This document shows positions 13,392 through 14,342 of a stretch of DNA of 64,000 nucleotides, piece after piece (positions within the stretch are counted from its first letter, which is position 1; every line of letters begins with the position of its first letter). A program made the translations under genes and the position numbers. Source of the DNA: an uncultured Glaciecola sp. (GTDB lineage Bacteria > Pseudomonadota > Gammaproteobacteria > Enterobacterales > Alteromonadaceae); the NCBI RefSeq assembly GCF_937770335.1, contig NZ_CALJHY010000005.1, positions 62,001-126,000 on the forward strand, given 5' to 3'. A model generated the notes under the pieces. It was given only the letters and a program-made list of their open reading frames with translations, was not told the origin of the DNA and searched no databases.

Positions 13392-13401
13392 GTAGTATTT
13401 T

Positions 13402-13431
13402 AGTCATTACAGTCTGTTGGCTGTAATGACT
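13402..13431 (+). terminator. Hairpin after the S9 peptidase gene
   Basis: An 11-bp perfect inverted repeat (AGTCATTACAG / CTGTAATGACT) with an 8-base loop, 11 bases after the stop. No T-run follows. A second perfect 9-bp hairpin (CTCCAAACT / AGTTTGGAG) lies at 13458-13483. Confidence 0.5.
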
Positions 13432-13532
13432 GATTAACTCAGATGCCTCTGTAATCACTCCAAACTCAATGAAAAGTTTGGAGAGTGCCGTAAACCGAAT
13501 AACAAAAAAACAAATATTAGGAGCAAACCATA

Positions 13533-14342
13533 ATTAATACTGCATTAATTCGAGTGATTATACTTTTTAGCCTATCCTACTTCGCCTTTTTTGTGCACTC
13601 TGCTGAGCAAGTATCAGATGATCTTTATGAAGATGATGGTTCAGGATCTGTTGTAGCACTCACGATACAAAACATTGCTGGCAATATCGACAAGCGAATT
13701 TCTAGTATGAAGATGCTGGCCAATACAATTGCCAACGACACACATATTCAGCAGTGGGTCGATGACGGGTTTTCACCGGCAGGCGAACATACATTAACAA
13801 GAAAGCTAGGTTATTTGGTAAGCGAATACGACCTCACTAGTGCATCTTTTGCCGATACACAAAGCAATAAATATTGGAATCACGAGGGCTTTTTACGTGT
13901 TTTAGTCCCCAAAATTGATACGTGGTATTTTGCTTACCTAGAAAGTGGTGAGCAAAACCTTATTAGTGTTTATCATGACAAAAATAAAAAACGTGTCGAC
14001 CTTTATGTTAACTATCGACAGCCAAACGGGAACGGTCTTTCTGGTATAGCGACTTCATTTAACGGGGTTATTGAGACGTTGGCCAAGTCGCCTTTGAATA
14101 AATATGGCGAGCTATTTATAGTTGATAATGTCGGTAAAGTTCAGGTCCACCCCGATCCTAAAATGGCCGGCCAATTTAATTTAGAGCAACTGTATTCTGC
14201 AGATACAGCAAGAACGTTGCTTGCGCCTCAACCATTCAATTATGTCAATAATGCGGATGTGAACGGTCAGTACTTAGTATCCAGTTATATCCCTAGTATG
14301 GATTGGTTTGTTGTGGCGCAACTCAAGGGTGAGCTGCACTAG
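13533..14342 (+). CDS. Cache (PDC) sensor-domain protein with apparent non-canonical start codon
   Basis: A protein of about 270 residues with an N-terminal hydrophobic segment (ALIRVIILFSLSYFAFFVHSA), then a single extracytoplasmic Cache-like ligand-binding domain. Recognisable pieces are NIAGNIDKRISSMKMLANTIAND, GSYWNHEGF-like TQSNKYWNHEGFLRV, GELFIVDNVGKVQVHPDPK and the terminal VSSYIPSMDWFVVAQL. No HAMP, kinase, GGDEF or methyl-accepting output domain follows; it ends after the sensor domain. The track start GTG at 13554 has no ribosome site and cuts into the signal segment. A strong TTAGGAG (13517-13523) points to ATA at 13530 or ATT at 13533 as the real initiation codon; an in-frame TAG at 13518 limits extension. 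Function unknown, possibly a ligand-binding partner of a separate signalling protein. Confidence 0.72.
   Translation: MNTALIRVIILFSLSYFAFFVHSAEQVSDDLYEDDGSGSVVALTIQNIAGNIDKRISSMKMLANTIANDTHIQQWVDDGFSPAGEHTLTRKLGYLVSEYDLTSASFADTQSNKYWNHEGFLRVLVPKIDTWYFAYLESGEQNLISVYHDKNKKRVDLYVNYRQPNGNGLSGIATSFNGVIETLAKSPLNKYGELFIVDNVGKVQVHPDPKMAGQFNLEQLYSADTARTLLAPQPFNYVNNADVNGQYLVSSYIPSMDWFVVAQLKGELH

Follow-up and report, generated by a model that had tools for sequence, protein, structure and literature searches.

A gene for a stand-alone dCache protein in the window (the whole 64-kb stretch of Glaciecola DNA that was analysed) has lost the ATG with which its closest orthologues begin, and may instead be translated from ATA 13530 and/or ATT 13533, two isoleucine codons that lie behind a strong Shine-Dalgarno (SD) sequence. 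We consider the chances evenly balanced that these near-cognate codons are the working start of the gene, judging from the sequence features set out below.

13402–13483, + strand: two leader hairpins, with a 13-pair stem at about 13402–13431 and a 9-pair stem at about 13458–13483 (fold z −4.1 for 13392–13580)
13469–13537, + strand: upstream ORF of 22 codons, MKSLESAVNRITKKQILGANHN, from sequence reading; its TAA (13535–13537) overlaps the ATT candidate
13515–13517, + strand: TAT, the column of the ancestral ATG of the G008, G009 and G010 orthologues in the gapless alignment
13517–13523, + strand: SD-like TTAGGAG, containing the in-frame stop TAG 13518–13520 (duplex −6.5 kcal/mol; background 2.4%)
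13530–13532, + strand: ATA, candidate near-cognate start; in the alignment its column is an internal Ile codon, ATC, in G008 and G009
13533–13535, + strand: ATT, candidate near-cognate start 9 nt past the SD; in the alignment its column is an internal Ile codon, ATT, in G008 and G009
13554–13556, + strand: GTG, first in-frame canonical start, without an SD (+1.9 kcal/mol) and predicted to be base-paired (unpaired 0.13)
13530–14342, + strand: predicted dCache protein of 270 codons plus stop, stand-alone and periplasmic, with a McpH-like YRWYN motif (sequence, alignment, model)

Direct reading of the sequence places the Cache open frame at 13521–14342 (+ strand), immediately behind the in-frame TAG. 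After the stop the frame reads GAG CAA ACC, ATA (13530), ATT (13533), AAT ACT GCA TTA ATT CGA and GTG (13554); it is devoid of ATG, GTG and TTG between the TAG and this GTG, and the earliest in-frame ATG is 62 codons inside. The AGGAG of the SD is spaced 6 nt from ATA and 9 nt from ATT, and the anti-SD duplex energy is −6.5 kcal/mol for these codons versus +1.9 kcal/mol for GTG 13554. A previous, sequence-only reading of this DNA had drawn attention to the strong TTAGGAG at these two distances, to the lack of a canonical start ahead of GTG 13554, and to the GTG itself as having no ribosome site and truncating the signal helix. All of these observations held, the last in that the signal peptide would lose its charged n-region if translation began at the GTG. 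The arrangement, with no canonical start beside a well-spaced SD, is that of near-cognate ATN-start genes of the infC type.

The SD by itself is moderate evidence only, since an SD of equal strength precedes the first ATG in just 2 of the 45 long ORFs of the window and is found before 2.4% of sampled positions; for in-frame ATA/ATT codons inside genes the figure is 2.0%. By our own estimate the likelihood ratio that it contributes for a real initiation site is about 2 to 5, which is suggestive rather than decisive. In longer predicted folds, which reach about 90 nt into the coding sequence, TAGGAG pairs in part with a TCCTA about 50 nt downstream and the unpaired probability of the SD is about 0.2, so that the SD may be partly sequestered.

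A search of 12 other Glaciecola genomes found stand-alone Cache orthologues in seven, and one further Glaciecola MAG also has one; their open frames, of 279–289 codons, start with ATG except in G004, where the start is GTG. The genes of G. pallidula (G009) and G008 open with ATG GGT TCC AAA ACG ATC ATT, where the corresponding stretch here is TAT TAG GAG CAA ACC ATA ATT, and the ATG of G010 also lies four residues ahead of the corresponding Thr. In these three nearest species the ATG is, in other words, five codons upstream of the ATA 13530 column. Gapless similarity to the sister genes covers ACC-ATA-ATT and ends just upstream; if one gap is allowed, the sister ATG aligns to ATT 13516–13518, beside a one-base deletion. 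The ancestral ATG is lost under either alignment, and under both ATA and ATT are former internal codons.

An original ATG mutated to ATA had also been proposed, and this proposal did not survive the comparison: the orthologues have no ATG at the 13530 column, and G. pallidula and G008 carry ATC there. As the ancestral start, an ATG at 13530 is ruled out by the alignment, in which the sister ATG stands five codons earlier; a derived ATG, gained after the loss of the ancestral start and itself lost later, is conceivable. Nor do the orthologues start at the position of the GTG; the sisters carry GTC or other non-start codons at the 13554 column. A non-AUG start kept in relatives, as seen for genes of the infC type, was not found, the orthologues starting elsewhere with ATG (GTG in G004). 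Conservation of a start is unnecessary for its function, yet its absence removes the usual sequence support. No further strain of the species turned up in a scan of genome contigs.

A break in synteny also lies close upstream of the gene. Downstream of the Cache gene, synteny with G008, G009 and G010 holds for the dehydrogenase and amidohydrolase genes. Upstream, the peptidase gene lies 138 bp from the Cache gene here versus about 9.4 kb in G008. The intervening 9.4 kb in G008 includes genes for a solute-binding protein and a GGDEF-EAL protein (Pfam) and, by inspection only, sterol desaturase-, AraC regulator-, cysteine synthase- and penicillin acylase-like genes; in G010 the upstream genes differ yet again. 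More generally, the upstream region varies among Glaciecola species (13392–13530 here; L043 620–10036; L046 1–5229), and a sugar-catabolism-like downstream block is conserved. In G008 (L043 903–4081) the periplasmic solute-binding protein gene overlaps the GGDEF-EAL gene by four bases, which suggests that the two form a ligand-to-c-di-GMP sensing pair; G009 has a similar segment.

When the leader (13392–13523) was compared with the flanks in the sisters and with the rest of 13 Glaciecola genomes, no significant homologue emerged, and therefore the breakpoint can be neither dated nor pinned to a single base; a leader evolving neutrally would in any case have diverged beyond recognition over this distance. 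A rearrangement near the Cache start is plausible. We found no promoter-like site in the leader here or on the Cache strand in the sisters, and the search for known structured RNAs in the leader gave one sub-threshold, chance-level Rfam match (snoRNA). The two leader hairpins are not terminator-like by a consensus scan; the first (about 13402–13431) could form the end of the peptidase transcript.

The coding region itself is intact and conserved. Its dN/dS against the sisters is 0.09–0.12, on nearly saturated dS, with no acceleration on the branch of this gene. Of the residues that do not vary among the other eight orthologues, only the initiator Met is missing. In neutral simulation, the open frame and the invariant residues were both kept in about 3% of cases at 0.02 substitutions/site and in less than 1% at 0.03, limiting unconstrained divergence to about 0.02–0.03 substitutions/site. 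Together these results indicate that the protein has been under selection for nearly all the time since the split. This record fits translation from ATA/ATT or from GTG, or a loss of the start so recent as to be effectively at strain level. An old pseudogene is ruled out by the same constraint.

Start-loss mutations are common relative to true ATA/ATT starts, which counts against initiation at ATA/ATT, as does the lack of a promoter-like site in the leader. It is possible, if on the unlikely side, that the relocated gene used an ATG at 13530 that has recently become ATA, making it an incipient pseudogene whose translation is nearly abolished, or that the ATA is a base-call error. The SD spacing is ideal for an ATG at this position, an intact coding region would be expected because the time for decay was too short, and such changes do occur, as S. 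aureus citZ has AUA in one laboratory lineage (PMC13009471). However, two steps (ATC to ATG to ATA) would be needed where a single synonymous step, ATC to ATA, suffices, and the assembly is good (100% complete, 18 contigs), with the site outside a homopolymer.

Translation could also begin, without an SD, at GTG 13554, which is a canonical codon and would leave the short signal peptide MIILFSLSYFAFFVHSA. Several orthologues likewise have a weak or absent SD (G011, −0.7; G004, with its GTG start, +0.3; G008, −2.4 kcal/mol). We nevertheless find this start improbable, as besides its unfavourable duplex and predicted pairing it would give an n-region without positive charge, it falls in a column of non-start codons in the sisters, and it leaves the strong TTAGGAG unexplained. 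The 22-codon ORF upstream (ATG 13469–TAA 13537), which may permit translational coupling or may have arisen by chance, offers another route, in which it is read and ribosomes reinitiate at ATA/ATT via the internal SD, or slip by one base into the frame of the Cache gene. Its overlap geometry matches that of coupled genes, and leader peptides are known to control translation in bacteria (PMC13009471). Coupling of this kind seems to us very doubtful, however, since ATG 13469 has no clear SD and sits in a hairpin loop, AT-rich DNA is likely to contain an ORF of 22 codons by chance, and the leader has no homologue in the genus for testing conservation.

Near-cognate initiation, the explanation that we prefer, would have come about when the 5′ flank was altered by rearrangement or by several small changes and the ancestral ATG was lost in this lineage. 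The TTAGGAG of the present flank would then steer the initiator tRNA to ATA 13530 and/or ATT 13533. Initiation would be low-level and IF3-sensitive, and the signal peptide, M(I)NTALIRVIILFSLSYFAFFVHSA-EQ, would look normal. Whether the start was captured in the full sense, with an SD in the new flank recruiting internal Ile codons and purifying selection then acting at reduced, IF3-dependent expression, we can propose only tentatively, and we lean somewhat against it. A gene finder restricted to ATG/GTG/TTG would call GTG 13554, cutting off the front of the signal peptide, or miss the start.

The assignment of the product to Cache domains by the sequence-only reading gained support, and can be narrowed to dCache. 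The structure model shows a complete double-Cache domain behind an N-terminal helix (mean pLDDT 77), although the match to Pfam dCache_1 is under the curated cut-off (27.5 versus 45 bits). The best match among solved structures is the McpH domain (PDB 8BMV; sequence E 2e-19, fold E 6e-19), which binds uric acid and has the purine motif Y121-R129-W140-F167-D169 (PMC11245519). In the alignment to McpH the equivalents here are Y115-R123-W132-Y159-N161, invariant across the nine Glaciecola proteins and conforming, as YRWYN, to the five-residue purine motif (Y/F, R/K/H, W/F, F/Y, D/N); residues 115–161 correspond to about 13872–14012. The ORF stops after the domain here and in the eight orthologues, leaving no place for the output domain of a transmembrane receptor. 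The product is likely a secreted, unanchored purine-sensor-like domain, with secretion and purine binding predicted from its sequence, and the orthologues would form a family of such secreted stand-alone domains in Glaciecola. Relatives outside the genus are mostly longer (about 640 aa), and one long relative from another Glaciecola (L009) is a dCache_1-HAMP-MCPsignal protein by Pfam scan. In G009 and G008 (L002 and L003), imperfect tandem TAGAAGGT-type repeats follow the Cache gene, the first unit holding its stop codon.

Among known systems, the protein is closest to the dCache_1PU sensors typified by McpH, which provide its best sequence and fold match and an equivalent five-residue motif. 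Unlike McpH-type receptors, it lacks both a C-terminal transmembrane segment and a signalling domain and is predicted to be a secreted stand-alone domain, and the exact variant YRWYN is absent from the variants tested in the McpH paper (PMC11245519). We therefore file it as a stand-alone relative of these sensors and not as a receptor.

For the start itself, the analogy with the ATT start of infC, drawn earlier from the sequence, proved to be real in the genus. There infC begins with a conserved ATT-AAA-GGC in 12 of the 13 Glaciecola genomes examined (its start in G007 was not resolved), in five of them without an ATG two codons upstream. The form ATG-CAA-ATT is common to this genome and six further Glaciecola; here (L060 1442–1470) the sequence is TTTAGGAGCAA-ATG-CAA-ATT-AAA-GGC, with the ATG two codons before ATT and only 3 nt from the SD. 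The infC and Cache start regions of this genome are identical at 17 of 22 bases and equal in SD–ATT distance, a likeness unmatched among the other AGGAG sites (135 examined); this is a resemblance and not proof of common origin.

In S. aureus, starts at AUA and AUU that follow an extended SD give about 10% of the output of AUG (PMC13009471). Like infC and S. aureus cvfC1 (AUU), ccpN (AUA) and citZ (AUA), the Cache gene has a strong, well-spaced SD and no canonical start nearby, and by analogy with genes of this type its output would be expected to be low. The starts of those four genes were shown by ribosome profiling or reporters, whereas that of the Cache gene is a candidate proposed from the sequence; and the starts of infC, cvfC1 and ccpN are conserved, whereas the ATA/ATT of the Cache gene is species-specific and aligned to internal Ile of ATG-started orthologues. 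The gene also resembles a frameshifted lambda cI whose rescue came from an internal non-AUG codon close to the RBS (PMC6397469): in both, the normal start is lost and an RBS is left near internal codons that may initiate. The lambda cI case is a laboratory construct with a single-base deletion, a strong RBS and reporter tests, whereas the Cache gene belongs to a natural lineage and its internal starts are candidates. We regard the Cache gene as a candidate addition to the known AUA/AUU-start genes. If confirmed, it would be a rare natural AUA/AUU start other than infC in a gammaproteobacterium, and would show a gene surviving the loss of its ATG by means of a nearby strong SD.
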